This document shows positions 18,734 to 45,578 of a stretch of 64,000 nt of DNA, piece after piece. Under the pieces are notes generated by a model. The model was given only the letters and a program-made list of their open reading frames with translations, did not search any database and was not told the DNA's origin. Source of the stretch: Flavobacterium aestivum (GTDB taxonomy: Bacteria > Bacteroidota > Bacteroidia > Flavobacteriales > Flavobacteriaceae); contig NZ_CP113977.2 of NCBI RefSeq assembly GCF_026870175.2, positions 3,038,001-3,102,000 on the forward strand. Reading direction: 5' to 3'. The position numbers and the translations under genes were made by a program. Positions within the stretch are counted from its first letter, which is position 1. Each line of letters opens with the position of its first letter.

Positions 18734-18760
18734 ATTTTATTAAAATTGAATAGATATTAA

Positions 18761-18787
18761 AAAGGCTACCTTGATTGGGTAGCCTTT
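18761..18787. terminator. bidirectional terminator, cassette 1 downstream end
   Basis: AAAGGCTACC pairs perfectly with GGTAGCCTTT around TTGATTG and is flanked by A and T runs, so it can end both CAP gene 3 (+) and the OmpA-like gene (-). The same hairpin recurs at 34214-34240 and marks the downstream boundary of the duplicated cassette. Confidence 0.85.
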
Positions 18788-18812
18788 TTTTGTTTAGAGG
18801 ATTGTTTTTGGA

Positions 18813-20753
18813 TTATAATGCTGTGATAATAAATTCACTGCGTCTGTTTTGTTGATGTTCTTCTTCGGTACATTTTACGCCATCGGAGCAGTTGTTATAC
18901 AATAGACTTTCCCCATATCCTTTGCTGGATAATCGGTTAGGATTGACACCACTTTTGATAAGCCAATCTCTGGTAGATTTGGCTCTTCTGTCAGATAGTG
19001 CCTCATTGTATTTGGCGCTACCTCTGCTATCGGTATGGGAGCGGATGTCGATTTTCATGTTTGGATATTCGGCCATTACGTCCAATATTTTGGCAAGATC
19101 CAAAGCGGCTACGGGTTTAATGTCGGATTTATCAAATTCAAAGTAAATCCATTTGATACCAAAGCATTTACCCAAATCATCTCCCACGGCCACTTTACAT
19201 AGCGCTTTTTCGAAGGTAAGGTTGAGTTGGGTTTTACAGTCTTTCTCTGCAATGGTTACCGTTTTTTCGGTAGTGGTATATTCTTCTTTTTCGGCTCTTA
19301 CACTATAGGTTTTTTCCCCTTCAATGTCAAAGGAATAGTATCCTTTATCATCGGATTCGGTGGTTTTAAGCAATTTGTGCTGATCGTCATATAGGGAGAC
19401 CTTAGATTTGGGAAGCATTTCGTTGGTTGCCAATTCAGAAGTGGTACCGTTTAACTCATATTTGCATTTTATGGGTCTTGTTTCCAGGAATTTATAGATA
19501 TCATCATACCCTTTGCCGTTGTCCCTATTGGAGGAGAAGAACCCGATTCTACTTTTAGTATCAATTAGATAGGCAAAATCATCTTTAGGGGAGTTTACCT
19601 CGGCCCCCACATTTTGTACCGGACCAAAAGTTCCGTCCTCCTTGATTTGGGATACAAATACATCGAGTCCGCCAAGACCGGAATGGGTATCGGATGCAAA
19701 ATAGATTTCATTGTCATCTGTAACAAACGGAAAGGTTTCCTTACCGGGCGTATTGATGGTTTTGCCTAAATTCACCGGAATGCCATAAGTCCCATCGCTA
19801 TTGATACTAACCTTAAAAATATCCGATTCCCCTAAAGTACCCGGCATGTCCGATGCAAAGTACAATGTTTTCTCATCGGGACTAAGGGCAGGGTGTGCTG
19901 TACTGTAGTTATCGCTGTTAAAGGGTAACTCGGTTACATTGGTCCAGTCATTTTTGGCATAACTGGCTTTGTATATTTTAACCAAAGTAATTTTATTGTC
20001 GTCTTTCCCTTTTTTGCCTTCCAGATAATTATTTCTGGTAAAATACATGGTATTGCCGTCTTTGGTAAAAACAGCACTCGCTTCATGGAATTTTGATTTC
20101 ACTCCAGGGGCAAACTTTTTAGGAGGTCCTGGGGTTAGGGAGTCTCCGGTTAGATCGCAGATATAAAGGTTAGTAAAATATTGATCGGTCCAGGTATGTT
20201 TTCTTTGCCCTAAGCTACCGGTATCTCTGGAGGAAGTAAAAACGAGTTTTCCGTTATAAAAGGAGCTACCGTAATCGGAATATTTAGAGTTCACACCGGC
20301 ATCTTTGACTTTATATCTGCCGGAATTGGCTTTTATTTTATCGAGATAGTTCACCTCTTTGATGTAGGTTTCTCCTTTGGCGGGATCCTTGGATTTCTCA
20401 TTGTAGAGTTTCAGCATTTCATTGGCTTTATCATTCTCCCCAATAGATCGCAAGCAATGGGCATAACGATAATAGTATTCCGGATCTACAGAAGAGGTTA
20501 TGGCAAAGAGTTCCCCATACCATTTGGCGGCTTTGTCCAACTCAGCATTGAAGAAATAGGCATTGCCTAATTTCTGGTACATCTCAGCCGATTTGTATCC
20601 TTTGTTGGATACTCGCTCATAGGTCTTTATGGCATCTATATAAGCATAGTTATCATATTTTTTATCCGCATTAGATACCTTGCCCTTTTGGGCATAATTG
20701 TTAAATGAAAAAAGACCGAGTATCATCAGGTAGAGTAGAATGTTATTTTTCAT
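18813..20753 (-). CDS. PorE-like OmpA-family protein (TPR, PD40 propeller, CRD, OmpA domains), cassette 1
   Basis: 646 aa. A signal peptide ends near NNYAQ (~21). A TPR region (~30-130) is followed by PD40/WD40-like propeller blades (~160-420; repeated LSPDEKTLYFASD, VTDDNEIYFASDT and FFSSNRDNGKGYDDIY motifs). A carboxypeptidase-regulatory-like domain (~440-515) comes next, then a C-terminal OmpA domain (~530-646; YFEFDKSDIKP, HTDSRGS, LSDRRA). This is the architecture of PorE, which ties the T9SS to peptidoglycan. It is the last gene of the five-gene minus-strand cassette. A second copy at 34265-36205 differs at only a handful of residues, clustered in the OmpA domain. Probably an anchor for the adhesin export complex (inference). 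Confidence 0.9.
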   Translation of the reverse strand: MKNNILLYLMILGLFSFNNYAQKGKVSNADKKYDNYAYIDAIKTYERVSNKGYKSAEMYQKLGNAYFFNAELDKAAKWYGELFAITSSVDPEYYYRYAHCLRSIGENDKANEMLKLYNEKSKDPAKGETYIKEVNYLDKIKANSGRYKVKDAGVNSKYSDYGSSFYNGKLVFTSSRDTGSLGQRKHTWTDQYFTNLYICDLTGDSLTPGPPKKFAPGVKSKFHEASAVFTKDGNTMYFTRNNYLEGKKGKDDNKITLVKIYKASYAKNDWTNVTELPFNSDNYSTAHPALSPDEKTLYFASDMPGTLGESDIFKVSINSDGTYGIPVNLGKTINTPGKETFPFVTDDNEIYFASDTHSGLGGLDVFVSQIKEDGTFGPVQNVGAEVNSPKDDFAYLIDTKSRIGFFSSNRDNGKGYDDIYKFLETRPIKCKYELNGTTSELATNEMLPKSKVSLYDDQHKLLKTTESDDKGYYSFDIEGEKTYSVRAEKEEYTTTEKTVTIAEKDCKTQLNLTFEKALCKVAVGDDLGKCFGIKWIYFEFDKSDIKPVAALDLAKILDVMAEYPNMKIDIRSHTDSRGSAKYNEALSDRRAKSTRDWLIKSGVNPNRLSSKGYGESLLYNNCSDGVKCTEEEHQQNRRSEFIITAL

Positions 20754-20799
20754 AATAATTATTTTTATAGGAATTTAAAATTGTCATTTATGGTTCACG

Positions 20800-21183
20800 T
20801 CATTTGGATTGGTTACCAGACAGCTCATTGAATTTTTTCAGGTTCTCACCGGCTTTTTGGGTCTCACCAATAGCCCTTAACGCAATGGAATAGCGGTAAT
20901 AATATACAGGTTCCAGATTGGTTGTCATCTCACATAATTCACCATAACATTTGGCGGCCTTATCCAGTTGCTCATTAAAAAAATAAGAGTCGCCTAATTT
21001 CTTTAGCATATCCGGGGATTTATATCCTTTCTCGGAAACTCTTTCATAGGTTTTTACGGCGTCAATATAGGTGTAATTGTCTTTTTTTTGGGGCTCCTTA
21101 GAAGCAGCTTTTGCTTTTTGGGCATAACTGTTAAATGATAAAAGTCCCAGTATAGTCAGGTAAAACAGTAGGTTCTTTTGCAT
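20800..21183 (-). CDS. short exported TPR protein, cassette 1
   Basis: 127 aa with a signal peptide (to SYAQ, ~22). The remainder is a TPR module (TYIDAVKTYERVSEKGYKS, YFFNEQLDKAAKCYGEL) clearly homologous to the N-terminal TPR part of the adjacent OmpA-like protein and to the C-terminal part of the 285-aa protein upstream. It ends where the PD40 propeller would start, so it is a free-standing TPR domain. It lies 46 bp before the OmpA-like gene and is surely in its operon. A near-identical copy is at 36252-36635. Possible role: periplasmic adaptor; unproven. Confidence 0.85.
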   Translation of the reverse strand: MQKNLLFYLTILGLLSFNSYAQKAKAASKEPQKKDNYTYIDAVKTYERVSEKGYKSPDMLKKLGDSYFFNEQLDKAAKCYGELCEMTTNLEPVYYYRYSIALRAIGETQKAGENLKKFNELSGNQSK

Positions 21184-21241
21184 AACGATTGGCTTTAGGG
21201 TGATTCAGGTTTGTCTTTTGCATGTTCTCAATACAGATCAA

Positions 21242-22099
21242 TTACTTGATGCGATTTCCGGATAATTCATTGTATTTTTTCAAATTTTCACTGGCCTTTT
21301 TATCTTCCCCAATCGCTTTTAGGGATATGGCGTAGCGGTAATAACATTCAGGTTCCACATCGGTGGTTAGGGCAAATAACTCGGCATAACATTTGGCGGC
21401 TTTCTCAAATTCATCATTGAAGAAATAGGCATTGCATACTTTTTTGAGCATAAAAATGGATTTATATCCTTTCTCGGTAACTCTTTCGTAGGTTTTTACA
21501 ATATCGATATAAGCGTAATCACCCATCTTCTTGGGGCTGTCAATATGGGTATTGATCTTTAATCGGTCACTTAAAGGATCAATATTTTTAGATTCAATAG
21601 AACCAACGGATTCAAGTTTGGTTTCTAACGCAGGGGCTATCGGAACAGTTTCCTTGACTTCCTGTTTCACCGGAATCTCTTCCTTGATTTCCTGTTTCAC
21701 CGGTGGGGCTACCGGAGTTGTTTCCTTGATTTTCTGTTTCAGTTGGGGCTCTACTGGAGTTACAACCTGGGTATTTTGCTCTACGATTTTATCTATAACA
21801 GTAATAACCCGGGTGTTGTTGGGTCCTAAATCGAAGGTGTTGATTAATTTAGGATCCGGTACGTCATAAGTGGTGGTGTGTCCGCCAAATGTTAAGTTAA
21901 TGGTTTCTACTACATGATACGATTTTACAGTCTTTACAGTTTTAACTGTTTTTACGGAAGAGATCATTGTTTCGGTTCTGGCATTTATTTGATTGTCCGC
22001 TTTTTTTTTGACGCTTGTGTCAAGCTGAACGATTTGAGCAGAACCACTAAATGAGAGAACATTTGCTATGGCTATGTAAATAAGTATCTTCTTTTTCAT
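21242..22099 (-). CDS. exported protein with Pro/Glu/Lys linker and C-terminal TPR module, cassette 1
   Basis: 285 aa. The signal peptide ends near SGSAQ. Residues ~45-105 contain a VKTVKTVKTVKS run and a conserved segment (FGGHTTTYDVPDP). Residues ~115-175 form a low-complexity linker of PV/APPVKQEIKEE-type repeats. Residues ~190-285 form a TPR module (YAYIDIVKTYERVTEKGYKS, YFFNDEFEKAAKCYAEL) homologous to those of the next two genes. The paralogue at 36694-37551 conserves both ends, but the linker is much more diverged. Located between the SprF-like and 127-aa TPR genes; function unknown. Confidence 0.85.
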   Translation of the reverse strand: MKKKILIYIAIANVLSFSGSAQIVQLDTSVKKKADNQINARTETMISSVKTVKTVKTVKSYHVVETINLTFGGHTTTYDVPDPKLINTFDLGPNNTRVITVIDKIVEQNTQVVTPVEPQLKQKIKETTPVAPPVKQEIKEEIPVKQEVKETVPIAPALETKLESVGSIESKNIDPLSDRLKINTHIDSPKKMGDYAYIDIVKTYERVTEKGYKSIFMLKKVCNAYFFNDEFEKAAKCYAELFALTTDVEPECYYRYAISLKAIGEDKKASENLKKYNELSGNRIK

Positions 22100-22148
22100 G
22101 ATAATTATTTTTAGAAAGGAATCTTAGCTCATATCACCGGCTTAACCG

Positions 22149-23060
22149 TTAGAAGAATCTAGGGGTCGACATTTTACTGTTTTTCTTGAATATTTCATAA
22201 CGCAAGAATATCTCGTGGGATCCGGAATTGTAATTATCCAGAGCAGTAGTTTCAAAATCATAAGCGTAACCTATGTAGAACCCGTCAGAGATTTGAAACC
22301 CAGCCATGGCACTCACAGAGGCGCTCCATCTGTAGGCAACCCCCACAGTAAATTTTTCATTGAAGAGAAAGTTACCGGAAATATCAAATTGCAATGGGGC
22401 ACCCTCAGTTACTTTGGCCATAAAAGTAGGTTTGAATTTTATGGAAGAATTCAGATCAAAAACATACCCACCAATTAAATAGTAGTTTATCTTTTCTTTA
22501 TAAATAGCCACTTCATTGTCGTTATAGGCATTCGTTTCTATAAAATTCGGGATCGAAAACCCTACATAGGCCTTTTGGGAATGCAGGTAAATACCTGCTC
22601 CAATGTTGGGAGAAAAGTCATTGTCAATGTTTTGAAATTGAGGGTCGGTTTGATCACCAGGATTCAATTTGGTAACATCGATACTAAAAATATTTGCAGT
22701 TCCTTTAATACCAAAAGAGAGTTTACAGGATTCAGAAAGGGGGATATAGTAGGATAGGTCCGCAGATATGGAATTGTTGGTGGAAGGACCAATTTCATCA
22801 TTGACAATAGAGACTCCCAATCCAACCCTGCTGTTGTTAAAAGGGGTATTTACAGAGACAGTATTGGTAATCGGGGCTCCATCAAGACCAACCCATTGCG
22901 TACGATGCAGGGCAAAAATACTTAATGCACCTCTTGTACCCGCATAGGCAGGATTTACATTTATTGTGTTATACATATATTGGGTATATTGTGCATCTTG
23001 CTGCGCAAAACTTGCAATGGCTGTAAACATCAAAACGAAAGAGAATAATTTTGTTTTCAT
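22149..23060 (-). CDS. PorP/SprF-family type IX secretion membrane protein, cassette 1
   Basis: 303 aa with a signal peptide (to SFAQ, ~19) followed by the family-typical QDAQYTQYMYNTINVNPAYAG start and a beta-rich outer-membrane barrel. In Flavobacterium, SprF is needed for secretion of the adhesin SprB, and PorP/SprF-like genes usually sit next to the type-B-CTD substrate they serve. Here the adhesin gene lies directly upstream on the same strand, 152 bp away. The product appears identical in protein sequence to the copy at 37614-38525, although the DNA has synonymous differences. Confidence 0.93.
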   Translation of the reverse strand: MKTKLFSFVLMFTAIASFAQQDAQYTQYMYNTINVNPAYAGTRGALSIFALHRTQWVGLDGAPITNTVSVNTPFNNSRVGLGVSIVNDEIGPSTNNSISADLSYYIPLSESCKLSFGIKGTANIFSIDVTKLNPGDQTDPQFQNIDNDFSPNIGAGIYLHSQKAYVGFSIPNFIETNAYNDNEVAIYKEKINYYLIGGYVFDLNSSIKFKPTFMAKVTEGAPLQFDISGNFLFNEKFTVGVAYRWSASVSAMAGFQISDGFYIGYAYDFETTALDNYNSGSHEIFLRYEIFKKNSKMSTPRFF

Positions 23061-23086
23061 AGTCGATATTTGTTGGTTAAAAATGG

Positions 23087-23106
23087 TTGTTACCTTTTTG
23101 TAACAA
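23087..23106 (-). promoter_or_regulatory. hairpin before SprF-like gene, cassette 1
   Basis: TTGTTAC pairs with GTAACAA around a 6-nt loop, 27 bp before the SprF-like start. It is conserved in cassette 2 at 38552-38571. It could affect mRNA stability or translation of the SprF-like gene. Confidence 0.45.
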
Positions 23107-23160
23107 TCTAGCTTTGAGGTATTTTGAAATGATATTGTAGTAATTGTATTAAAGATAGTT

Positions 23161-23201: not shown

Positions 23202-23212
23202 GGGGCTCATAA

Positions 23213-26200
23213 TTATTTGATTAAATAGAGATAACCATCTTTTTTAACACTTTGCGGTTTACCAAGACCATCGCTAGTATCATAGCTTAAGATATAGAAA
23301 TAGGTACCGGTTGGTAAACCTTCTCTTTTATTGATGGTAGTTCTACCTTCTGAATATCCTCTAAAAGCATTGCTGCCATTATTATAATTGTCTTTCTCGA
23401 ATACTAAAACCCCCCAACGGTTGAAAACCTCAAGTCTGATGTTTTTGTAACAATCGTTGTCGTCCAGATTATCAATTTGGAAATAATCATTTCTACCGTC
23501 CTCATTCGAAGTGAAAGCATTATGAATCACTAAGCTTTTGCAAGGAAGCACTTTACAGTCATCATTAATGTTCAGTACAAGGAATATGCTTCTAGGACAA
23601 TCCCCGGCAATTTTATATTCAAAATGATAGGTGCTAATAGGAAGTCCAAAGGCATTAAGGATATTTCCGTTTACAGCTCCGGTATGATCAGAGTCTACCC
23701 AAACTCCGTCTCTAGGAGTTCCCTCAGGAAGGAAAGTAAATAGATCCACCGGGGTAGTATCTGCATTACAAGGAGATCTGTCACTAGGAATGGTTATGGT
23801 AACTGATTCTATTCCCGCCACATTAATGGTAATGGTAGCAGTAGAACAATTGTTAGGATTAGCAGCCTCACAGATTTGATAATCGAAGACGTATTGTCCC
23901 GCAGCCACATTATTTGCAATGGTGATGTTACCTTGGTCATCTATGGTGATGAATTGTCCAAGAGCGGTTAGCAATTTGAATTTAAAGTCAGCCGGATTGG
24001 CTACCACACCATTTAATAAATCATTGCTCAAGGCATTTCGAACCCCTTCCAGAACAGAACATTGTGTAACACTAAAGGTGTCATTTGTGGCTTGAATAAC
24101 AAGAGGGGTATTTACAACAGTAATGGTAACCAGAGCAGAGTCACAATTACCGGCATCCGCTATTTCGCATATTTGATACGTTAGGGTATAGGTACCGCTA
24201 GGAGCATTCTCTTTTACATCAACAGATCCATCGGTGTTTAGAGTGATAGCCCCGTTAGGATCCGGAACCAAAATCGATAAGGTAACATCGGCAGGATTAA
24301 CCGCAACGGTGTTTAAGTTGTCATTGTTAAAGACATTCAATATGTTTTTCACCCCATGCAATCCATCTACAGTACTGGCAGTATCATCTACCGCATCGAT
24401 TAAGAATGTTGGTCTGGCGGTACACAACGGATCAGAAGGAGGGTAGTTAACAACAATAGTTTCACTTGGGTTTAAGGTGAATGTTACCGATGCGGTAGGT
24501 CGTGTGTTTTCAAAACCATCAGGGGCTTCAATCCATTTTTGACCCTCTAGCACCCAACCAGGCCAATCGGTACCATTACCGTTTTGATCCACAGTAGCCC
24601 CAGGCCATAACACTTTTCCGCTTAGCGGTAAGTTGGTCATAGTGCTAACAACGTTGTTTTTACTGTCAGTCCATGTCAATGTTAAACCATTTACTGGAGT
24701 AAAGTTATTGGCAGTGGCAGTATAACTGAAGTAAGGTACATCGTTGATACAGATCCCTTCTCCAGAGATGGTCATGCTTGGCGCTTCTATGTTTACCGTT
24801 ACAGTGGCAGAATCACAATTGGTGTTATTTAGTTTTTCACAAATTTGGTACACCAATGTTTGAGGACCAACAGGGGCATCGGCCAACACATCTATAGAAC
24901 CATCCGGATTTAATTGCAGGAATGGGTTAGGTGTTACAGTGGTTAGAATAACATCGGCCGGATTAACCGCAGCTGCATTCAAAGTATCATTGGTAAACAC
25001 ATTGATCACATTAGGCGTGATTTGGTTCACCCCGACAATGGTACCGGCATTATCATCAACGGCATCAATAGGATGGGCACTCTCGTTTACAGTTTCATCA
25101 TCAGTGGCACTTACAGGAGTGTTGGTAGGAGTTAATCCATCAGCTTTGGCTACATTGATAACGGATCCTTTGTCTAAATCCTCTTGAGTTACCGTATAGC
25201 TTTGGGTGTAGTCTAAACTGGCACCCGGAGCAAGGGTTTCTATAACAGTATCAAGTCCGGTTAATGGGTCTTTTACAGTTATTTGATGCAATGTGGTATT
25301 ACCCGTATTTTTTACGTTTATGGTATAGTTAATCACATCACCAACAGCGCTAAAACTAGCAGTTGTGGTTGTTTTAGTAACCGTTAATCCGGGAGTAATA
25401 CAAAACGTAATTACGTTAGGATTATCACCTGCTGGTGAATCACCGGATTGATCACTCACTACAGTATCATTAGGCGCAGTACCACTAACCGAAGCCTGAT
25501 TGGTAATGCTTCCGTTATCGATATCGGCTTGGGTTACAGTATAAGTGGCTTTGTAAATCCAGGTTTCGGTAACCTCCAATATATTGTTGTTATTGCTGTC
25601 ACCGCTTTGTAGCGCTATGGCAGATAAGCCAGCATGAAGATCAGTGACAGTTATATTGTGCAAACTCACAATACCGGAATTGGTCACTGTAAAGGTATAG
25701 GTTACCACATCGCCAACGGCTAGAGTAGAGCATCCGTTTGGTCCCACTTCTATATCATTGGTTTTTACTAAACGAATACCAGCGTTAGTACAGATAGGGA
25801 TTACATTAGGATTATCACCCGTTGGGGAATCACCGGATTGGTCACTCACTGTGGCATTATTTGGCGCAGTACCACTAACCGATGCTTGATTGGTAATGCT
25901 TCCGTTATCAATATCGGCTTGGGTTACGGTATAAGTGGCTTTATAAATCCAGGTTTCTGTAACCTCAAGTATATTGTTGTTATTGCTATCACCGCTTTGT
26001 AGTGCTATGGCTGATAAACCGGTATGTGGGTCGGTAACAGTTATATTATGTAAACTCACATTGCCGGGATTCGTTACCGTAAAAGTATAAGTCACCACAT
26101 CACCTACCGCTAGGACAGCGCATCCGTTTGGTCCAACTTCTATGTTGTTGGTTTTTACTAAAGCGATTTTAGGGTTAGTACAGATAGGGATTACATTAGG

Positions 26201-29200
26201 ATTATTACCTGTTGGTGAATCACCTGATTGATCGGTCACTATGGTATTATTTGGTGCAGTACCATTAACATAAGCTTGATTGGTAATGCTTCCGTTATCA
26301 ATATCGGCTTGGGTTACGGTATAAGTGGCTTTATAAATCCAAGTTTCAGTAACCTCCAATATGTTGTTATTATTGCTATCTCCGCTTTGTAGTGCTATTG
26401 CAGATAAACCAGTATGAGGGTCGGTGACAGTTATGTTGTGTAAACTTACATTACCGGGATTAGTTACTTTAAAGGTATAAGTCACCACATCACCAACCGC
26501 AAGAGTAGCGCATCCGTTTGGCCCAACTTCGATGTCATTGGTTTTGACTAAAGCAATTTTAGGATTAGTACAAATTGGGATTACATTAGGATTATCACCT
26601 GTTGGTGAATCACCAGATTGGTCAGTTACTACGGTGTTATTTGGCGCAGTACCGTTAACCGAAGCTTGATTGATAATGTTGCCATTATCAATATCGGCTT
26701 GAGTTACAGTATAAGTGGCTTTATAAATCCAAGTTTCTGTAACCTCCAATATGTTGTTATTATTGCTATCGCCGCTTTGTAATGCTATGGCAGATAAGCC
26801 GGTATGTGGGTCGGTGACAGTTATATTGTGTAAACTCACATTACCAGAATTAAACACTTTAAAGGTATAAGTCACTACGTCACCAACTGCTAGAGTAGCA
26901 CATCCATTTGGTCCAACTTCGATGTCATTGGTTTTAACTAAAGTAATTTTAGGATTAGTACAAATAGTAATTACATTAGGAACATTACTTGTTGGTGAAT
27001 CACCAGATTGATCGGTTACTACGGTGTTATTTGGTGCAGTACCATTAACCGAAGCTTGATTGGTAATGCTACCGTTATCAATATCGGTTTGGGTTACGGT
27101 ATAAGTGGCTTTATAAATCCAGGTTTCAGTAACTTCTAAGATATTGTTATTATTACTATCGCCGCTTTGTAGTGCAATGGCAGATAAACCAGTATGAGGG
27201 TCGGTGACAGTTATATTGTGCAAACTCACATTACCTGGATTAGTCACCTTAAAGGTATAAGTAACTATATCACCAACTGCTAAGATAGCGCATCCGTTCG
27301 GACCAACTTCAATGTTATTATTTTTTACTAAATTAATATTAGGATTAGTACAAATAGGAATTACATTAGGATTATTATCCGTTGGCGAATCACCAGATTG
27401 GTCGGTTACTATGGCATTATTAGGCGCAGTACCATTAACCGAAGCTTGATTAGTAATGCTTCCGTTATCAATATCAGCTTGGGTTACAGTATAGGTAGCT
27501 TTATAAATCCAAGTTTCGGTAACCTCTAGTTTATTATTGTTATTGCTATCACCACTTTGTAACACAATTGCGGATAAACCGGTATGAGGGTCGGTAACAG
27601 TTATATTATGTAAACTCACATTACCAGGATTAGTTACTGTAAAAGTATAAGTCACTACATCGCCAACTGCTAAGGTAGCGCATCCGTTTGGTCCAACTTC
27701 TATGTTATTACTTTTTACTAAAGTAATTTTAGGTGTTTGAGTCAAAGGAGTCATTGTACAATCAGGACATTGAGGATTAATAGGGCAAGATGTACAAGGT
27801 GTAGGATCAGTAGATGTGTCTTTTACGTCAGCACCGGTTGGAGGTGTACCAATAGCAGTAGCCCAGTTATAAACAACTCCAGAATCAATTTCATTTTGTG
27901 TAATGGCATGACTAGCAGTAAACGTAGAACTATCTGATGCGCCAGGAGCAAGAGACGCAATTGGACCACCAGAAACAACAGCATTAATATCCGTAACTTT
28001 AATGTTTGTTAGAGTTACGTTACTAGTATTAGTTATAACAAAATTATAGATTACTTTATCTCCAATATTTGTTATACCGTCTGCATTAGTGTCTTGATAT
28101 GTTCCATCTTTGGTAATCTCAACAGAACATGAATTTATAGTTAAGATAACTGGAGTACGGTTCAAATTAGTACAAAGAGTAGTATTATTTACAGCTTGAG
28201 CATAATAAGTAACAGTTCCTACTGTATTTAGAGTTGGGCTGCTTATAGAACTACCTCCGATTGCAGTGGTATACCAATCAATATGTTGACCTGCTGGTAC
28301 TGTGGCTGTAGCTGTTAATGTTTGTATTGAAGGAGCCATACATTCGGTTATGTTACCTCCGGAAATGGGTGGAGCTGGAAGTGAATTCACTGTTACAGAT
28401 GTAGTTGCTGTTACAGCGGCACATCCGCCAGCAGCTGCAATAGTGTAGGTAACGGTATAGGTTCCGGCAGTACTTGAGCTTGGCGTAATTTCTCCAGTTG
28501 CAGCATCAATTGTTAATCCTGCTGTAGAGCTATAAATGCCACCAGTATAAATTCCAGTACCAGTTAAGGTCACAGACTGAGTAGTTACCGAAGTACACCA
28601 AGGAGAACCTGAATAGGAGATATGAGCTGTTGGCAAAGTTGTTATGGTAACCGAAGTAGTTGCTGTTACTGCTGCGCATCCACCAGCTGCGGCAATAGTA
28701 TAAGTAACAGTATAGGTTCCGGCTGTACTGGTACTTGGGGTTATTGTACCAGTTGAAGCGTTAATAGTCAGACCTACAGTTGAGCTATACACTCCACCAG
28801 TATAAACTCCGGTTCCAGTTAAGGTTACCAATTTGGCTGTTGCCGAAGTACACCAAGGAGAACCTGAGTAAGAGATATTCGCAGTTGGCAAAGCAGTTAT
28901 TTTTACCGAAGTAGTTGCTGTTACAGCTGCGCATCCTCCAGCTGCGGCAATAGTATAAGTAACGGTATAGGTTCCGGCAGTACTGGTGCTTGGAGTAATT
29001 TCTCCAGTTGCAGCATCAATTGTCAAACCAGCTGTGGAGCTATAAACACCACCAGTATAAATTCCAGTACCAGTTAAGGTTACTGACTGAGTAGTTGCAG
29101 TAGTACACCAAGGAGAACCTGAGTAGGAAATACTCGCAGTTGGTAAAGTTGTTATGGTTACTGAAGTGGTTGCTGTTACAGCGGCGCATCCACCAGCTGC

Positions 29201-36251: not shown

Positions 36252-36635
36252 TCATTTGGATTGGTTACCAGACAGCTCATTGAATTTTTTCAGGTTCTCA
36301 CCGGCTTTTTGGGTTTCTCCAATAGCTCTTAATGCAATGGAATAGCGGTAATAATATACAGGTTCCAGATTGGTTGTCATCTCACATAATTCACCGTAAC
36401 ATTTGGCGGCCTTCTCCAGTTGTTCATTAAAGAAATAAGAGTCGCCCAATTTCTTTAGCATATCTGGGGATTTATATCCTTTCTCGGAGACTCTTTCATA
36501 GGTTTTTACGGCGTCAATATAGGTGTAATTGTCTTTTTTTTGGGGCTCCTTAGAAGCAGCTTTTACTTTTTGGGCATAACTGCTAAGAGAGAAAAGTCCC
36601 AGTATAGTCAGATAAAATAGTAGGTTCTTTTGCAT
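36252..36635 (-). CDS. short exported TPR protein, cassette 2
   Basis: 127 aa, the duplicate of 20800-21183. Changes are few and mostly in the signal peptide region (FSLSSYAQKVKAA for LSFNSYAQKAKAA) plus one Asp-to-Glu in the TPR helix. The strong conservation of a free-standing TPR module in both cassettes argues that it is a working gene and not a decaying fragment of the OmpA-like gene. Confidence 0.85.
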   Translation of the reverse strand: MQKNLLFYLTILGLFSLSSYAQKVKAASKEPQKKDNYTYIDAVKTYERVSEKGYKSPDMLKKLGDSYFFNEQLEKAAKCYGELCEMTTNLEPVYYYRYSIALRAIGETQKAGENLKKFNELSGNQSK

Positions 36636-37613: not shown

Positions 37614-38525
37614 CTAGAAAAATCTAGGGGTAGACATTTTACTGTTTTTCTTGAATATTTCATAACGCAAGAATATCTCATGAGATCCGGAATTGTAATT
37701 ATCCAGAGCAGTAGTTTCAAAATCATAGGCGTAACCTATATAGAACCCGTCAGAGATTTGAAACCCAGCCATGGCACTCACAGAGGCGCTCCATCTGTAG
37801 GCAACCCCCACAGTAAATTTTTCATTGAAGAGAAAGTTACCGGAAATATCAAATTGTAATGGGGCACCCTCAGTCACTTTGGCCATAAAAGTAGGTTTGA
37901 ATTTTATGGAAGAATTCAGATCAAAAACATACCCACCAATTAAATAGTAGTTTATCTTTTCTTTATAAATAGCCACTTCATTGTCGTTATAGGCATTAGT
38001 TTCTATAAAATTCGGGATCGAAAACCCTACATAGGCCTTTTGGGAATGCAGGTAAATACCTGCTCCAATGTTGGGAGAAAAGTCATTGTCAATGTTTTGA
38101 AATTGAGGGTCGGTTTGATCACCAGGATTCAATTTGGTAACATCAATGCTAAAAATATTTGCAGTTCCTTTGATACCAAAAGAGAGTTTACAGGATTCAG
38201 AAAGGGGGATATAGTAGGATAGGTCCGCAGATATGGAATTGTTGGTGGAAGGACCAATTTCATCATTGACAATAGAGACTCCCAATCCAACCCTGCTGTT
38301 ATTAAAAGGGGTATTTACAGAGACAGTATTGGTAATCGGGGCTCCATCAAGACCAACCCATTGCGTACGATGCAGGGCAAAAATACTTAATGCACCTCTT
38401 GTACCCGCATAGGCAGGATTTACATTTATTGTGTTATACATATATTGGGTATATTGTGCATCTTGCTGCGCAAAACTTGCAATGGCTGTAAACATCAAAA
38501 CGAAAGAGAATAATTTTGTTTTCAT
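37614..38525 (-). CDS. PorP/SprF-family type IX secretion membrane protein, cassette 2
   Basis: 303 aa and apparently identical in amino-acid sequence to the product of 22149-23060. The DNA carries scattered, mostly synonymous changes, so the duplication is real and under purifying selection or conversion. It has a signal peptide, the QDAQYTQYMYN start and beta-barrel character. Predicted outer-membrane partner for export of adhesin 2, whose gene lies 152 bp upstream on the same strand. Confidence 0.93.
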   Translation of the reverse strand: MKTKLFSFVLMFTAIASFAQQDAQYTQYMYNTINVNPAYAGTRGALSIFALHRTQWVGLDGAPITNTVSVNTPFNNSRVGLGVSIVNDEIGPSTNNSISADLSYYIPLSESCKLSFGIKGTANIFSIDVTKLNPGDQTDPQFQNIDNDFSPNIGAGIYLHSQKAYVGFSIPNFIETNAYNDNEVAIYKEKINYYLIGGYVFDLNSSIKFKPTFMAKVTEGAPLQFDISGNFLFNEKFTVGVAYRWSASVSAMAGFQISDGFYIGYAYDFETTALDNYNSGSHEIFLRYEIFKKNSKMSTPRFF

Positions 38526-38571: not shown

Positions 38572-38625
38572 TCTAGCTTTGAGGTATTTTGAAATGATAT
38601 TGTAGTAATTGTATTAAAGATAGTT

Positions 38626-38666: not shown

Positions 38667-38677
38667 GGGGCTCATAA

Positions 38678-41600
38678 TTATTTGATTAAATAGAGATAAC
38701 CATCTTTTTTAACACTTTGCGGTTTACCAAGACCATCGCTAGTATCATAGCTTAAGATATAGAAATAGGTACCGGTTGGTAAACCTTCTCTTTTATTGAT
38801 GGTAGTTCTACCTTCTGAATATCCTCTAAAAGCATTGCTGCCATTATTATAATTGTCTTTCTCGAATACTAAAACACCCCAACGGTTGAAAACCTCAAGT
38901 CTGATGTTTTTGTAACAATCGTTGTCGTCCAGATTATCAATTTGGAAATAATCATTTCTACCATCCTCATTCGAAGTGAAAGCATTATGAATCACTAAGC
39001 TTTTACAAGGAAGCACTTTACAATCATCATTAATGTTCAGTACAAGGAATATGCTTCTAGGGCAATCCCCGGCAATTTTATATTCAAAATGATAGGTGCT
39101 AATAGGAAGTCCAAAGGCATTAAGGATATTTCCGTTTACAGCTCCGGTATGATCAGAGTCTACCCAAACCCCGTCTCTAGGAGTTCCCTCAGGAAGGAAA
39201 GTAAATAAATCCACCGGAGTAGTATCAGCATTACAAGGAGATCTATCACTTGGAATGGTTATGGTAACTGATTCGATTCCAGCCACATTAATGGTAATGG
39301 TAGCAGTAGAACAATTGTTGGGATTAGCAGCCTCACAGATTTGATAATCGAAGACGTATTGTCCCGCAGCCACATTATTTGCAATGGTGATATTACCTTG
39401 TTCATCTATGGTGATGAATTGTCCAAGAGCGGTTAGCAATTTGAATTTAAAGTCAGCCGGATTGGCTACCACACCATTTAATAAATCATTGCTTAAGGCA
39501 TTTCGAACCCCTTCCAGAACAGAACATTGCGTAACGCTAAAGGTGTCGTTTGTGGCTTGAATAACAAGAGGGGTATTTACAACAGTAATGGTAACCAGAG
39601 CAGAATCACAATTACCGGCATCCGCTATTTCGCATATTTGATAGGTTAAGGTATAGGTACCGCTAGGAGCATTCTCTTTTACATCAACAGATCCATCGGG
39701 GTTTAGAGTGATAGCTCCGTTAGGATCAGGAACCAAAATCGATAAGGTAACATCGGCCGGATTAACCGCAACGGTGTTTAAGGTGTCATTATTAAAGACA
39801 TTCAATATGTTTTTCACCCCATGCAATCCATCTACGGTACTGGCAGTATCATCTACCGCATCGATTAAGAATGTTGGTCTGGCGGTACACAACGGATCAG
39901 AAGGAGGGTAGTTAACAACAATAGTTTCACTAGGGTTTAAGGTAAATGTTACCGATGCAGTAGGTCGTGTGTTTTCAAAACCATCAGGGGCTTCAATCCA
40001 TTTTTGACCCTCTAGAACCCAACCAGGCCAATCGGTACCATTGCCGTTTTGATCCACAGTAGCCCCAGGCCATAACACTTTTCCGCTTAGCGGTAAGTTG
40101 GTCATAGTGCTAACAACGTTGTTTTTGCTGTCAGTCCAAGTCAATGTTAAACCATTTACCGGAGTAAAGTTATTGGCAGTGGCAGTATAACTAAAGTAAG
40201 GCACATCGTTGATACAGATCCCTTCTCCGGAGATGGTCATGCTTGGCGCTTCTATGTTTACCGTTACAGTGGCAGAATCACAATTGGTGTTGTTTAGTTT
40301 TTCACAGATTTGGTACACCAATGTTTGAGGACCCACAGGGGCATCAGCCAACACATCTATAGAACCATCCGGATTTAATTGCAGGAATGGGTTAGGTGTT
40401 ACAGTGGTTAGAATAACATCGGCAGGATTAACCGCAGCTGCGTTTAAAGTATCATTGGTAAATACATTGATCACATTAGGCGTGATTTGGTTCACCCCGA
40501 CAATGGTACCGGCATTATCATCAACGGCATCAATAGGATGGGCACTCTCGTTTACAGTTTCATCATCGGTGGCACTCACAGGCGTATTGGTAGGAGTTAA
40601 TCCATCAGCTTTGGCTACATTGATAACGGATCCTTTGTCTAGATCCTCTTGAGTTACTGTATAGCTTTGGGTGTAGTCTAAACTGGCACCCGGAGCTAGG
40701 GTTTCTATAACAGTATCAAGTCCGGTTAATGGGTCTTTTACGGTTATTTGGTGCAATGTGGTATTACCTGTATTTTTTACGTTTATGGTATAGTTAATTA
40801 CATCACCAACGGCGCTAAAACTGGCAGTTGTGGTTGTTTTGGTAACGGTTAATCCAGGAGTAATACAAAACGTAATTACATTAGGATTATCACCTGCTGG
40901 TGAATCACCGGATTGATCACTCACTACAGTATCATTAGGCGCGGTACCACTAACCGAAGCCTGATTGGTAATGCTTCCGTTATCGATATCGGCTTGGGTT
41001 ACAGTATAAGTGGCTTTATAAATCCAGGTTTCGGTAACCTCCAGTATGTTATTGTTATTGCTATCACCGCTTTGTAGCGCTATGGCAGATAAGCCAGGAT
41101 GAAGGTCAGTAACAGTTATGTTGTGCAAACTCACAATACCGGAATTGGTCACCGTAAAGGTATAGGTTACCACATCGCCAACGGCTAGAGTAGAGCATCC
41201 GTTTGGTCCCACTTCGATGTCATTGGTTTTTACTAAACGAATACCAGCGTTAGTACAAATAGGGATTACGTTAGGATTATCACCTGTTGGGGAATCACCG
41301 GATTGGTCACTCACTGTGGCATTATTAGGCGCGGTACCACTAACCGAAGCCTGATTGGTAATGCTTCCGTTATCAATATCGGCTTGGGTTACGGTATAGG
41401 TGGCTTTATAAATCCAGGTTTCGGTAACCTCAAGTATATTGTTGTTATTGCTATCTCCGCTTTGTAGTGCTATGGCAGATAAGCCGGTATGTGGGTCGGT
41501 AACAGTTATATTATGTAAACTCACATTACCCGGATTGGTCACTGCAAAGGTATAGGTTACCACATCGCCAACCGCTAGGACAGCGCATCCGTTTGGTCCA

Positions 41601-44479
41601 ACTTCTATGTTGTTGGTTTTTACTAAAGCGATTTTAGGTGTTTGAGTCAAAGGTGTGATAGTACAATCTGGACATTGAGGGTTAATAGGGCAAGTTGTAC
41701 AAGGTGTAGGATCAGTAGACATAGATGATATATCATCACCAGTAGGAGGAGTTCCAGTAACTTTAGACCAGTTATAAACAATTCCAGAATCTATATCACT
41801 TTGTGTTATTGCATGAATCGCGGTAAAAGTCGTACTATCTGTGGCACCAGGGGCAAGAGAAGCAATTGGGCCACCAGAAACAACAGCATTAATATCCGTA
41901 ACTGTAATGTTTGTCATAGTTACGTTACTAGTATTGGTTACAACAAAATTATATATTACGTTATCTCCAATATTAGTTATGCCATCTGCATTGGTATCTT
42001 GATAGGTTCCATCTTTCGTAATTTTAAGCGAGCATGAGTTTATGGTTAAGACTACTGGAGTACGAGTAGAACTCACACAAGAAGTGATATTATTTACAGC
42101 TTGAGCGTAATAGGTAATAGTTCCTACAGTATTTAGAGTTGGGCTGCTTATAGGACTACCTCCAGTTGCAGAGGTATACCAATCAACATGCTGACCTGCA
42201 GGGGCTGTGGCTGTAGCTGTTAATGTTTGTATTGAAGGAGCCATACATTCGGTTATGTTGCCTCCGGAAATTGGTGGAACTGGCAGACTATTTACTGTTA
42301 CAGTTGCAGATTTTTGACAACCAGTAGCATTAGTAAAAGTAATCACAGCTGTACCATTAGACACACCACTTACCAATCCTGTAGCAGAAACAGTGGCAAC
42401 TGAAGGATTAGATGATACCCATGCATCAGAAGCAGCTCCTGTTGCAGATGCAGACAATTGTGTAGTTGAGTTTACACATACATTAAGTGTACCTGAAATT
42501 GTTAGTGTTGGATCTACATGAATGAGATAGGTTGATGTAGCTTTGGCACTTCCACAAGTATTATTACTGGTTACGGTCATAGTCAAGGTCACGGTTTTTC
42601 CCTCATCGGCAGCAACAGCAGTATAGGTTGGAGTCAAAGTAGTTGCATTACTTAAAGTACCTGCACCATTTTCTGTCCAAAGTATAGTTCCGTTTGAGGC
42701 TGTAGCTCCACTTACTGTTGCAGAAGAGTTGGAACAGATGGTTTGGCTTCCGCCTCCAGCAGATGCTATTGGTGCTCCATCATTTTTAATAATCACGTCG
42801 TCTGTACTACTAGGGCATGTTCCATTAGTTTCTGTCCAACGGAGAGTTATATTTTGATTAACCGGAACTGATGTTACAGTTGTTGTTGCCAAAGATGGCG
42901 AAGTAATCACGGCTGTTCCTGATGCTCCAACAAAACTCCAAACTCCCGTTCCTACAGAAGGAACAGCAGCCATGGTAAAAGTACTTGTGTTACATTTTGT
43001 CTGGTTTGGGCCAGCTACAGCAATTGGTGCAGCATCATTGGTCAAAACTACATCGTCTTCAGTGCTGCAAGTTCCATTTACAATTTTCCATTTCAGTACG
43101 GCAGCAGTTCCCGCTGGTACACCAGTTACACCAGATGTTGCTAAATGTATATTAGCAATAATTGCTGTTCCGCTAACTACTGTCCATGTGCCAGTACCTA
43201 CAGATGCAGCATTACCTGCAAGTGTAAAACTTCCGTTATTACAGTTGGTTTGATTATTACCTGCTGATGCTGCAGTTGGAGCAAGATCATTGGTTAATGA
43301 CACTGTATCCTCGGTGCTGCAAGTTCCATTTACAATTTTCCATTTTAGTACGGCCGTAGTTCCTGCTGGTACGCCAGTTACACCAGATGTTGCTAAATGT
43401 ATACTAGTTATGTTTGCTGTTCCGCTTACAACAGTCCATGTACCTGTACCTATAGTTGGGATATTACCTGAAAGTGTAAAGTTCCCATTGTTGCACTGTG
43501 CTTGATTGTTACCGGCTTCTGCATCAGTAGGCAAAGGGGTTACAGTTATTGTTGCTTCACTTGTGTTAAATGTATTTAGACACAAACCATTATCTTTTAT
43601 AACCGCTCTGTATTTGGTAGTTACAGTTAAATTAACTGCTGTATAAGTAGTTGTTGTATTAGGAATGTCATTCCATGTAGAGCCGCCATTTATGCTGTAT
43701 TGCCATTTAGTAACTGTGGCATTGCTGGTAAGACCGCTTACATTTAAGACTGTGTTATTAACTCCTTCACATACATTTGCATCTGGAGCAACAGATCCTT
43801 TTAATGGTATTCCAAAACTAAGAGGGACATCTATACATCTACTTGAAGAAGGTGAGTTACCACTAACAGAGGCTAATTTTGTAAGATTGATTAAACCTGG
43901 GTTATTTGGATCACAAATATTTATGCCAATACTGCCAAAAGGAATATTGAATTCTAAAAATTGACCTCCACCAGCATTACAACCCGTAGAGCTACCGTTT
44001 GCAGCAGCAAGTCCATTATTAATGGCTAGAGGAGTTTTAGTACTTCCGTTTCCAGAATATAGAACGAAGCCACTACCATTTGAATTAAGCTCTAAAATAT
44101 ACTCAGCACCAGCTACACCTAAACTACCGCCAAATGAATCTGATGTTAATCCAGTTGTAGGGTTATTATCGGTATCTAGATATAGTCGGAAAAGCGCCGA
44201 ACCTCCATTACCAATATTCATCCCTAATCTTAGTACTTGATCTTGGGTAATGACCTTAGCAAAGACTGTTCCTATTTGACATGTAGATGATGGACTTGAC
44301 GTTATTTCTTGGCTAAAAACTATTCCAGTGGCATATTCATCACCAATTGCTCCAGGACCCGGGCAGTAATCTCCTTCAGAGGCATCTTGAGCATATCCAT
44401 TTGCGAAAGAGACTAATAAAAGTAGTAAAACCAAAATTAAGGTTTGTTTTAGTTTTTTTTGAGGTAAAATTGGTTCCAT
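38678..44479 (-). CDS. large surface adhesin with T9SS type B C-terminal domain, cassette 2
   Basis: 1933 aa from ATG 44479, which begins MEPILPQKK and leads into a strong signal peptide (to NGYAQ). The frame is open 105 bp further upstream, but that would place the start inside the putative promoter. The N-terminal domain (~35-255) is unrelated to adhesin 1. An Ig-like domain, three PKD/Ig-like repeats (AGNNQ...GTGTWTVVSGTA), further Ig-like modules and a Big_2-like domain follow. From the SLPxPPISGG segment onward it matches adhesin 1: a DUF11-like domain, two NNIEVGPNGC units, one further DUF11 unit, three AVDD-type domains and the CHU_C type B sorting domain. Probable SprB-like surface filament exported through T9SS. 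Confidence 0.92.
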   Translation of the reverse strand: MEPILPQKKLKQTLILVLLLLLVSFANGYAQDASEGDYCPGPGAIGDEYATGIVFSQEITSSPSSTCQIGTVFAKVITQDQVLRLGMNIGNGGSALFRLYLDTDNNPTTGLTSDSFGGSLGVAGAEYILELNSNGSGFVLYSGNGSTKTPLAINNGLAAANGSSTGCNAGGGQFLEFNIPFGSIGINICDPNNPGLINLTKLASVSGNSPSSSRCIDVPLSFGIPLKGSVAPDANVCEGVNNTVLNVSGLTSNATVTKWQYSINGGSTWNDIPNTTTTYTAVNLTVTTKYRAVIKDNGLCLNTFNTSEATITVTPLPTDAEAGNNQAQCNNGNFTLSGNIPTIGTGTWTVVSGTANITSIHLATSGVTGVPAGTTAVLKWKIVNGTCSTEDTVSLTNDLAPTAASAGNNQTNCNNGSFTLAGNAASVGTGTWTVVSGTAIIANIHLATSGVTGVPAGTAAVLKWKIVNGTCSTEDDVVLTNDAAPIAVAGPNQTKCNTSTFTMAAVPSVGTGVWSFVGASGTAVITSPSLATTTVTSVPVNQNITLRWTETNGTCPSSTDDVIIKNDGAPIASAGGGSQTICSNSSATVSGATASNGTILWTENGAGTLSNATTLTPTYTAVAADEGKTVTLTMTVTSNNTCGSAKATSTYLIHVDPTLTISGTLNVCVNSTTQLSASATGAASDAWVSSNPSVATVSATGLVSGVSNGTAVITFTNATGCQKSATVTVNSLPVPPISGGNITECMAPSIQTLTATATAPAGQHVDWYTSATGGSPISSPTLNTVGTITYYAQAVNNITSCVSSTRTPVVLTINSCSLKITKDGTYQDTNADGITNIGDNVIYNFVVTNTSNVTMTNITVTDINAVVSGGPIASLAPGATDSTTFTAIHAITQSDIDSGIVYNWSKVTGTPPTGDDISSMSTDPTPCTTCPINPQCPDCTITPLTQTPKIALVKTNNIEVGPNGCAVLAVGDVVTYTFAVTNPGNVSLHNITVTDPHTGLSAIALQSGDSNNNNILEVTETWIYKATYTVTQADIDNGSITNQASVSGTAPNNATVSDQSGDSPTGDNPNVIPICTNAGIRLVKTNDIEVGPNGCSTLAVGDVVTYTFTVTNSGIVSLHNITVTDLHPGLSAIALQSGDSNNNNILEVTETWIYKATYTVTQADIDNGSITNQASVSGTAPNDTVVSDQSGDSPAGDNPNVITFCITPGLTVTKTTTTASFSAVGDVINYTINVKNTGNTTLHQITVKDPLTGLDTVIETLAPGASLDYTQSYTVTQEDLDKGSVINVAKADGLTPTNTPVSATDDETVNESAHPIDAVDDNAGTIVGVNQITPNVINVFTNDTLNAAAVNPADVILTTVTPNPFLQLNPDGSIDVLADAPVGPQTLVYQICEKLNNTNCDSATVTVNIEAPSMTISGEGICINDVPYFSYTATANNFTPVNGLTLTWTDSKNNVVSTMTNLPLSGKVLWPGATVDQNGNGTDWPGWVLEGQKWIEAPDGFENTRPTASVTFTLNPSETIVVNYPPSDPLCTARPTFLIDAVDDTASTVDGLHGVKNILNVFNNDTLNTVAVNPADVTLSILVPDPNGAITLNPDGSVDVKENAPSGTYTLTYQICEIADAGNCDSALVTITVVNTPLVIQATNDTFSVTQCSVLEGVRNALSNDLLNGVVANPADFKFKLLTALGQFITIDEQGNITIANNVAAGQYVFDYQICEAANPNNCSTATITINVAGIESVTITIPSDRSPCNADTTPVDLFTFLPEGTPRDGVWVDSDHTGAVNGNILNAFGLPISTYHFEYKIAGDCPRSIFLVLNINDDCKVLPCKSLVIHNAFTSNEDGRNDYFQIDNLDDNDCYKNIRLEVFNRWGVLVFEKDNYNNGSNAFRGYSEGRTTINKREGLPTGTYFYILSYDTSDGLGKPQSVKKDGYLYLIK
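40862..41641 (-). repeat. two 390-bp DUF11-type repeats in adhesin 2
   Basis: Two units corresponding to units 5 and 6 of adhesin 1 (25397-26176). The segment before them corresponds to that before unit 1 of adhesin 1, so four units (1560 bp) are missing here or extra there. Confidence 0.92.
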
Positions 44480-45578
44480 TTTGATTTGTTTTAAATCGTT
44501 AGAAAGTATTTTGAGTAGGTATATAATGAAATTCACACTTAAAAATTCATGCAAATTTTTTGAATAAATAATTTTACAAAGCAATAAAGCTTTATAAAAA
44601 ACAAGAAATAGTTATAGTGGTTGCCTTATTGATTGCATCAATAGGCAATAGAAAAATTCACGTTATTTTGTTGATTTATTTTATACTCTTGAAGTATCGC
44701 AAGTAAATAAATGCGCTACCAATGAGTATATACAAAGTCTGAAAAAGAAAGTAGTTTTGTTCCCATTCAATTAAAATTAAATTTAACTTGGAGCTAATAG
44801 ATTTTCTTTAATCGCTTACTTTGAATTTTTTTTATTTAAAATTCAATCGTTTGAAATTCGTTTTTGAATAAACCGAATTAAGATCATAACTTATTGACAA
44901 TAATCCATTTTAATTCCAATTTGGGGATAAAATCAAAATGAACATTCTAAAAACTAGAATTTGTTTACAGTTTAAAATTATGCATAATGTTCTAAAATTG
45001 TTCTGATTATCTTTTAATAACCTAAAAACTCGTTGAAAAGTTAAAAGTGTAATATAATCCATGTAAACTTTTCTTAAAATCACTAAAAATCAGCTTAATA
45101 TATTTACTTGTTTTAAAAATCTCCTAAGAAAGTTAAAGAGAGATATCAAGTCAAAAATAATTCTCCTAAAAATTAACAGAATTACTTAATGACTATTATA
45201 TGTATTTGAATGCTTAAAAGACTGAATGAACAATTGTTTAGTTCTTTTTTTTGTGTTTTTGGGTATAAGTAATTGATATAATTATGGTTATGAATTTTTA
45301 TTTTTTGAATAAATTTAGGATAGCATTACTAAATGATGAATTCAATTAAGTTTCATTGTAATTAATGATTCTTAAAATATTTTAAAATGAAAATCTAAAA
45401 CAGACAATTCTAATTTATTTTTTTGTAAATTGTTACTCCCTTTAAAAATAGGTTACACTTCATTTTATTACAATGTCGTAGTAACATATTTAAAATCATT
45501 ATAATCAGAAAATCTTATTTTTTTAAAGTTAGCATACGATATAGTTGTCAATTATTACAAACTTAATAGTAGTGTTTT
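44480..45578. other. long intergenic region between adhesin 2 and sixA-like gene
   Basis: 1.1 kb of very AT-rich DNA between divergent genes. The first ~130 bp hold the adhesin 2 leader and promoter. Short islands up to ~45040 are homologous to the upstream region of adhesin 1. The rest (45040-45578) shows no credible open frame, RNA gene or strong hairpin. Confidence 0.6.
44577..44605 (-). promoter_or_regulatory. putative promoter of adhesin 2
   Basis: Read on the minus strand: CTTG (44602-44605), a 17-bp spacer with TATAAAGCT, then TTGCTTTG (44577-44584), one mismatch from TAnnTTTG. It aligns with 33717-33745. A downstream leader segment containing TTTCTAACGATTTAAAA is also shared. Confidence 0.45.

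Follow-up and report, generated by a model that had tools for sequence, protein, structure and literature searches.

The window analysed here, a 64,000-nucleotide stretch of Flavobacterium aestivum (NZ_CP113977.2, positions 3038001-3102000 within a 4.58-Mb single-contig genome), carries two five-gene cassettes for giant adhesins of the type IX secretion system (T9SS). We propose that the locus consists of two different adhesins on one standard mount, the 3' export-and-anchor half of which has been homogenised between the copies. The core of each cassette, composed of an adhesin, an outer-membrane shuttle of the PorP/SprF family and a PorE-like protein, is already known as the 'static' anchor module of type B substrates, as described in two reports (PMC9143113, PMC12618676). 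Two further genes between the shuttle and PorE-like genes, encoding proteins of 285 aa (NT) and 127 aa (T), appear from their sequences to be optional relatives of the tetratricopeptide repeat (TPR) domain of PorE, not obligatory adaptors. The most useful lead is the C-terminal tail of the shuttle, the pattern of which is a new sequence rule that can be tested by a few point mutants.

Tandem cassettes in the window

The gene order adhesin (B), PorP/SprF (P), NT, T and PorE-like OmpA (E) occurs twice head-to-tail on the minus strand, comprising ten open reading frames (ORFs), as the original prediction had stated. The features are as follows.

23213..33622, minus strand: adhesin 1, 3469 aa; ORF with repeats and a C-terminal CHU_C type IX signal
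28392..32346, no strand assigned: 255-bp repeats of adhesin 1, 15.6 copies
25410..27733, no strand assigned: 390-bp repeats of adhesin 1, 6.0 copies; matching array in adhesin 2 at 40875-41627, 1.9 copies
22149..23060, minus strand: PorP/SprF family outer-membrane shuttle 1, 303 aa; C-tail ...STPRFF, single Cys112; TIGR03519 match
21242..22099, minus strand: NT protein 1, 285 aa; signal peptide (by eye), N-terminal beta-domain, disordered Pro/Lys/Glu-rich linker, C-terminal TPR
21794..21934, minus strand: N-terminal motif of NT 1 (YHVVE..FGG..TTTY.V..DLGPNNTRV.T); motif match, E 8.8e-29
20800..21183, minus strand: T protein 1, 127 aa; signal peptide (by eye) and stand-alone PorE-type TPR domain
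18813..20753, minus strand: PorE-like protein 1, 646 aa; TPR, beta-propeller (PD40), carboxypeptidase-regulatory-like (CRD) and OmpA domains
18759..18789, reported on both strands: hairpin terminator at the 3' end of cassette 1, possibly shared with a convergent CAP gene
38678..44479, minus strand: adhesin 2, 1933 aa; start taken as ATG, the listed ORF beginning at TTG, 44584
37614..38525, minus strand: PorP/SprF shuttle 2, 303 aa
36694..37551, minus strand: NT protein 2, 285 aa
37246..37386, minus strand: N-terminal motif of NT 2; motif match
36252..36635, minus strand: T protein 2, 127 aa
34265..36205, minus strand: PorE-like protein 2, 646 aa
34213..34241, minus strand: hairpin terminator at the 3' end of cassette 2

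A blastn alignment of 18724-26173 with 34183-41638 spans 7473 columns (about 7.45 kb) at 96.5% identity, which is far beyond chance. This near-identical block begins at the 3' end of the PorE-like gene and reaches some 1000 residues into the adhesin. The same hairpin, AAAAGGCTACC..GGTAGCCTTTT, lies at the 3' end of both cassettes, which likewise agrees with the earlier description. The whole scan gave 14 terminator-like sites against a mean of 13.3 in shuffles, that is, no excess; the two cassette hairpins have the longest stems.

Between the cassettes, PorP is identical at 303 of 303 residues, the PorE-like protein at 642 of 646, T at 122 of 127 and NT at 256 of 285, with 22 of the 29 NT differences falling in residues 105-187, the linker. 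Over the last ~990 aa of the adhesins, DNA identity per 100-codon window is 92-99.6% with its peak at the 3' end, the first, poorly aligned window standing at 50%. The repeat regions match at 69% (residues 1636-2333 in adhesin 1, 629-1302 in adhesin 2), and further 5' the adhesins share a single stretch of 117 columns (41%); the first ~630 aa of adhesin 2 are mostly different from adhesin 1. This 5' divergence is an addition to the original prediction, which does not mention it. No 255-bp repeat array was reported in adhesin 2. At their upstream ends the cassettes have about 155 bp in common (76%).

A single plain duplication of the whole unit was rejected, because the 5' parts of the adhesins differ and synonymous divergence (dS) is uneven along the unit: it is 0.062 for PorE, 0.070 for PorP, 0.184 for T, 0.152 for NT and 0 for the PorE TPR domain (108 codons). 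The uneven dS and the differing 5' parts would fit patchy gene conversion, on small counts.

Tandem arrangements were also sought in 24 hand-picked one- or two-contig genomes of the genus, the own genome included; in the majority of them the 127-aa protein finds a strong match. PorE frames were defined as those of at least 600 aa found with the 127-aa query at E <= 1e-8, a search that misses very divergent PorEs. Seven of the 24 genomes contain same-strand PorE pairs 10-15.5 kb apart, eight pairs in all with that of the window. Eight pairs outside the window were compared, seven from the 24-genome set and one from a draft genome: PorP and PorE are 98-100% identical in four of them, and in the remaining four the values are 55.7-95.0% for PorP and 57.2-94.4% for PorE. 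In three of the four pairs at 98-100% the similarity falls off within the adhesin: adhesin identity is 74% in G133 and 72% in G139, and one pair of G285 loses its DNA match part-way through the adhesin gene. The available adhesin part of the G036 pair, without divergence, counts against a mount shared by different adhesins. Recurrent tandem cassettes with a common mount and a variable adhesive part hint at surface diversification in these bacteria. In genome G022, four PorE frames of 655 aa with identical scores (C1 886026, 936702, 984240 and 1023052, spread over about 137 kb) are dispersed rather than tandem cassette copies.

Adhesins as type B substrates

The repeats of adhesin 1 are 255-bp (85-aa) units and 390-bp DUF7507/DUF11 units. 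Both adhesins match PF13585 (CHU_C) at 80.1 and 80.4 bits (cut-off 27), which identifies them as type B substrates. The TIGR04131 match is borderline: 29.4 and 30.6, under the cut-off of 35, by hmmscan, and 35.8 with neighbours in the genome search. Each adhesin gene lies directly upstream of a PorP/SprF gene with a gap of 152 bp in both copies, and this position suggests that each adhesin and the adjacent PorP are a cognate pair.

Nature and origin of T and NT

When T was used as a query in its own genome, 14 matches were obtained: the two T genes, the N-termini of the two PorE-like proteins of the window (60% aa identity), the C-termini of the two NTs (63-64%), six other PorE N-termini (33-47%), an orphan NT of 327 aa (51%) and a short frame (36%). 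At the DNA level, T, the 3' part of NT and the 5' part of PorE are about 70% identical. By these matches T can be read as a stand-alone PorE-type TPR domain, and NT as such a domain preceded by a new N-terminal part and a linker. The idea that T and NT are unrelated adaptors was rejected, since both match the PorE TPR domain.

The TPR nature originally assigned to the two proteins is borne out by this homology and by an AlphaFold model of NT, but not by any Pfam match above cut-off: T reaches 23.6 with TPR_2 (cut-off 27), and NT has no Pfam match at E <= 0.001. The reading of the NT C-terminus thus rests on homology to T and PorE and on the model, and the fold of T on homology to the NT model. 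In the model of NT 1 (alignment of 106 sequences), the N-terminal beta part is confident (strands 51-67, 74-80 and 96-111; block means 79-95), the linker (about 112-188) has low confidence and the TPR part (190-281) is confident, with helices at 200-281 and mean pLDDT per 10-residue block of 92-98 over residues 201-280, which is taken as a TPR fold. Foldseek with this model gave TPR proteins as best matches, none at E <= 0.001. The 50 Foldseek matches listed were TPR or unrelated helical proteins, and none of them gave a fold for the N-terminal domain; no solved structure of NT was found. Among 88 proteins the NT linker varies from 31 to 442 residues. The two longest, of 442 and 359 residues (L266:1899-3743 and L273:683-2278), are Lys-rich, and their net charge is +61 and +39, respectively.

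A tree was built from 135 TPR domains over 95 columns, and many of its forks are unresolved. It places the T of the window and those of two relatives together with the NTs from their own cassettes (97*), so that the T of the window probably has its nearest source in NT. By contrast, the T genes of L054 and L060 are found among PorEs. Six changes of the label T are required on this tree, at least three of them forced by well-supported branches, which suggests several origins of T by local duplication, as far as so short a domain can tell.

One explanation of such genes is that T and NT are by-products of unequal crossing-over at the porE 5' end, retained for a time without a function of their own. 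The ~70% match to the porE 5' end would agree with this, as would the way in which T and NT come and go between relatives, where the orders NT-T, T-NT, T-NT-T and NT or T alone are found. In the tandem pair of G036, one copy carries T-NT-T and its neighbour none, although their PorPs are 98.0% and their PorEs 98.7% identical; this pair illustrates how TPR genes can come or go, because T matches the porE 5' end. However, the ratio of nonsynonymous to synonymous divergence (dN/dS) is 0.08-0.21 for T (seven pairs), 0.03-0.12 for the NT TPR domain and 0-0.14 for the NT N-terminal motif (three pairs each), which points to purifying selection, several pairs having dS >1, near saturation. The corresponding values are 0-0.09 for PorP and 0.03-0.06 for PorE, and the NT linker is looser (0.12-0.54). 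Such constraint argues against junk, not for a given role. NT also has a conserved domain of its own, the motif of which is present in 88 of 299 genomes of the genus. We therefore regard the by-product explanation as unlikely and keep to T and NT as selected, optional relatives of the PorE TPR domain.

Distribution of T and NT

T or NT lies within 3.5 kb on the same strand of 9 of the 98 PorE frames in the 24 genomes, and this count probably errs on the high side, given that the sample is weighted to strong matches to the 127-aa protein. In the own genome, six of the eight adhesin-PorP-PorE cassettes have neither gene. The original prediction asked whether the TPR genes always accompany such cassettes and had named their absence from most related cassettes as grounds for giving up its reading; 89 of 98 frames and six of eight own cassettes do lack them. 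Its view of the cassette as a self-contained system survives for adhesin, PorP/SprF and PorE-like protein as one module, and not for the TPR genes as standard adaptors.

For NT, 79 loci were fetched from the best 80 of 369 confirmed stretches found with the NT profile, a few of them metagenome bins named to family or phylum. Among these loci the gene orders B-P-E, B-P-NT-E, B-P-T-E, B-P-NT-T-E and B-P-T-NT-E occur. In a set of 299 genomes of the family (236 genera), the NT N-terminal motif was found in two, both Flavobacterium, so its beta-domain is so far confined to that genus. Of 89 NT regions (91 places outside the own genome), 18 have a PorP, four have a PorE-like/OmpA neighbour only, 66 have neither and in one no NT was called. 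In 23 of these fetched loci NT lies outside the P-to-E slot; an RseP-like gene is a neighbour in 12 of the 23 and a gene for a 398-aa peptidase-like protein in 11, these names being given from sequence. The third NT of the own genome is the 327-aa orphan (L038:3828-4811, C1:3583827-3584810), with no PorP or PorE in the surrounding 10 kb.

These counts bear on the model first put forward, in which every such filament system needs two dedicated periplasmic adaptors for export. The place of T and NT between porP and porE in both copies of the window, and the 18 of 89 loci of other genomes with NT in or beside a PorP cassette, are what it would predict, but most PorE frames have no adjacent T or NT, and in F. 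johnsoniae the PorE-like gene fjoh_3950 is described as lying directly downstream of the shuttle gene for the pair Fjoh_3952/3951 (PMC12618676). We consider this model quite improbable, and optional genes the better description. Searches of open-licence PMC papers brought up no mention of T or NT.

C-terminal tails of the PorP/SprF shuttles

Both shuttles of the window belong to the PorP/SprF family by PF11751 (314.7 bits, cut-off 22.3), and copy 1 also matches TIGR03519 (302.5 bits, cut-off 90.55). The periplasmic C-tail of SprF is reported to be disulfide-bonded through its CxC motif to the GldK track (Liu et al., PMC12635249). The shuttles of the window lack such a twin-cysteine tail; their sole cysteine is Cys112 and they end in ...STPRFF.

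The own genome has 13 PF11751 matches, eight of them within B-P-E cassettes, including the two of the window. All eight cassette PorPs have SPRFF or TPRFF as their last residues and no cysteine in the tail, and the four non-cassette PorPs examined carry CxC or CxxC tails (the thirteenth match, in a 1330-aa frame, is outside this count). That frame (L049:612-4571; domain at C1:763680-764465) contains a PorP/SprF domain within one open frame, and PorP/SprF-domain frames of 781-1530 aa occur in 6 of 12 other genomes.

The same 12 genomes were used to extend the analysis. Of 100 places, among which three split genes are counted twice, 89 were fetched, with six fused frames and two weak matches omitted, and 87 of these gave a complete PorP (not L375 and L376). 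PorE was sought within 1.6 kb downstream. All 58 PorPs with PorE at this distance end in PR[FY]F without a cysteine motif, all 22 CxC-type tails have no PorE there, and seven PorPs have neither feature; two of the seven (L292, L294) carry T/NT with PorE further on and were assigned to the linked class by hand. Outside the genus, all eight PorE-linked PorPs lack tail cysteines, with six ending in PR[FY]F, one in QRWF and one in PRL.

Before pooling, L374 (broken frame), duplicate sequences, L389 (no complete PorP called), L398 and L402 were dropped, as were the Flavobacterium loci L378-L380, L383, L386 and L405, although these follow the rule. L396 has a PorE-like match, but on the wrong side, and was assigned as unlinked. 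The resulting 113 distinct PorPs comprise 72 linked to PorE, with an aromatic ending in 72 and CxC in none, and 41 unlinked, with an aromatic ending in none and CxC in 26; all 26 CxC tails thus occur without PorE. The aromatic pattern was widened to QRWF and PRL after two rows outside the genus had been seen, and with strict PR[FY]F the linked count is 70 of 72. One PorP (L312, G112:C1:2853077-2853946) has the tail SLRFF, with the proline changed, and no PorE in the stretch examined; it is a possible natural test of the rule.

With giant repeats, a type B signal and a PorP/SprF partner, the adhesins could be taken for mobile gliding adhesins like SprB. We hold this to be very improbable, given that both PorPs lack the twin-cysteine tail that ties SprF to the moving track, that both cassettes have a PorE-like gene and that in F. 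johnsoniae the substrate with a PorE link that was studied proved to be static (PMC12618676). Static display is the reading that we prefer.

It is also possible, though rather doubtful, that the PRFF C-terminus has nothing to do with PorE and either directs assembly of the beta-barrel or marks a clade. A C-terminal aromatic residue is a classical barrel-assembly signal. On the tree of PorPs the tail and the PorE link change only four times each, as a clade marker would. On the other side, the last strand-like stretch (HEIFLRYEIF, by eye) ends about 12 residues before PRFF, in the place where SprF-types have the CxC tail, and the 41 family members without PorE do without the ending.

We favour the view that the PorP C-tail selects the partner, the GldK track or the PorE wall anchor, as the pattern of tails suggests. 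A fuller version is put forward only tentatively, as less probable than not: the tail might act as a destination code in which CxC leads to covalent coupling to the moving GldK track and PR[FY]F to the PorE TPR domain and the cell wall, with T and the genus-specific, tethered NT, repeatedly spun off in Flavobacterium, competing for or extending the dock. If this code were true, T and NT could tune the number of wall-bound adhesins. Weighing against a tail rule of this kind, the association gives two independent contrasts on well-supported branches, for which a sign test is not significant, and it could reflect one ancient split or go back to few events. Searches of open-licence PMC papers brought up no mention of the tail rule. 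The mobile/static split is already in print, with PorE going with the static class; how the shuttle chooses is the gap that the tail pattern addresses.

Neighbouring genes

Three CAP-related genes lie in a row on the plus strand, convergent with cassette 1 (16349-16981, 17409-17915 and 18227-18733); two were assigned by Pfam and the third by similarity. CAP genes are convergent at 35 of 66 PorE 3' ends with at least 1.5 kb of downstream sequence, doubly fetched loci being kept in the count. The locus of the window is syntenic across many loci, with CAP-domain genes and up to four more genes beyond the 3' end of the cassette (the outermost at 24 loci), and L087 has sixA- and ppk-like genes on the opposite side of the cassette. 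CAP proteins as functional partners were set aside: genes beyond CAP are conserved too, and CAP adjacency therefore represents one syntenic locus, not independent evidence.

Discussion

The following explanation, taken as a whole, seems to us rather likely. Each cassette would display a single giant adhesin that stays in place, anchored to the cell wall. This adhesin would cross the outer membrane by the T9SS and be taken over by its dedicated PorP shuttle, which would become the surface anchor. The periplasmic C-tail of PorP (PRFF) would dock on the PorE-like protein, most likely on its N-terminal TPR domain, and the OmpA domain would hold the peptidoglycan. BamD, a TPR protein, is a precedent. 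Another is the TPR domain of P. gingivalis PorE, the model of which was built on UNC-45 in complex with a peptide from Hsp70 (PMC5053529). T and NT would be secreted, stand-alone TPR relatives, most likely extra or competing pieces of the dock at the PorP-PorE interface, and NT would also link the dock, via its flexible linker, to whatever its N-terminal beta-domain binds. Gene order, identities, domains, distribution and the tail/PorE association were computed; the docking of the tail, the TPR domain as receptor and the roles of T and NT are what we infer. The T and NT genes may serve as a natural probe of the PorP-PorE interface.

Several points weigh against this explanation. The protein that would provide the anchor has the TPR-propeller-CRD-OmpA domain order, its TPR part being recognised by AlphaFold helices (41-143) and homology, not by Pfam; its score for NCBIfam PorE (NF052230) is 333.2 bits, under the cut-off of 600, and a lipobox is absent, there being no Cys in the first 45 residues by eye. 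We therefore call it PorE-like, not PorE. In the TPR domain, K61 and R96 of PorE are kept in 92% and 62% of T and in 93% and 100% of NT, and N64 and Q99 are less kept: the Asn64 equivalent is often Asp in T and NT, and position 99, which is Gln in 89% of PorEs, is His in those of the window and mostly other in T and NT. T and NT may thus not bind quite the same ligand as the PorE TPR domain. Most NTs are orphans away from PorP (66 of 89 loci), so the role of NT may be broader; PRFF may instead be needed for folding of the barrel; and the structure predictions cover single chains only. No solved PorP structure was found, the one match, 7on8, being of 26 residues only.

Comparison with known systems

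The best NCBIfam match of the PorE-like protein is the CHU_0125 family (454 bits), yet below its cut-off of 620; CHU_0125 of Cytophaga hutchinsonii is described as needed for outer-membrane integrity (PMC5891637). The SprB-SprF gliding pair likewise has a type B adhesin on a dedicated barrel of the PorP/SprF family (PMC12635249), but SprF has the CxC tail whereas the PorPs of the window end in PRFF.

In Porphyromonas gingivalis, a PorE-PorP-PG1035 complex was shown, and anchoring of non-mobile type B proteins to the wall via PorP-PorE was proposed (Gorasia et al., PMC9143113). PorE of this species is a lipoprotein, and the T9SS is reported to depend on it as an essential component (PMC7192894). 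Both systems have a type B substrate, a PorP barrel and a four-domain PorE-type protein (TPR, propeller, CRD and OmpA). They differ in that P. gingivalis has a single PorP and type B protein, whereas the window has dedicated paralogues, a giant adhesin, two extra TPR genes and no lipobox.

For F. johnsoniae, the operon list reportedly goes back to Kulkarni et al. 2019. Five operons with a type B substrate, a shuttle and a PorE homologue are described (Paillat et al., PMC12618676). In the Fjoh_3952-3951-3950 operon, the PorE-like gene follows the shuttle gene directly with no T or NT between them, and the available part of PMC12618676 mentions no tandem homogenised copy. The adhesin, the cognate SprF-like shuttle and the PorE-like protein stand in the same order as in the window, and the adhesin Fjoh_3952 is static, with anchoring by the PorE homologue Fjoh_3950 proposed (PMC12618676).
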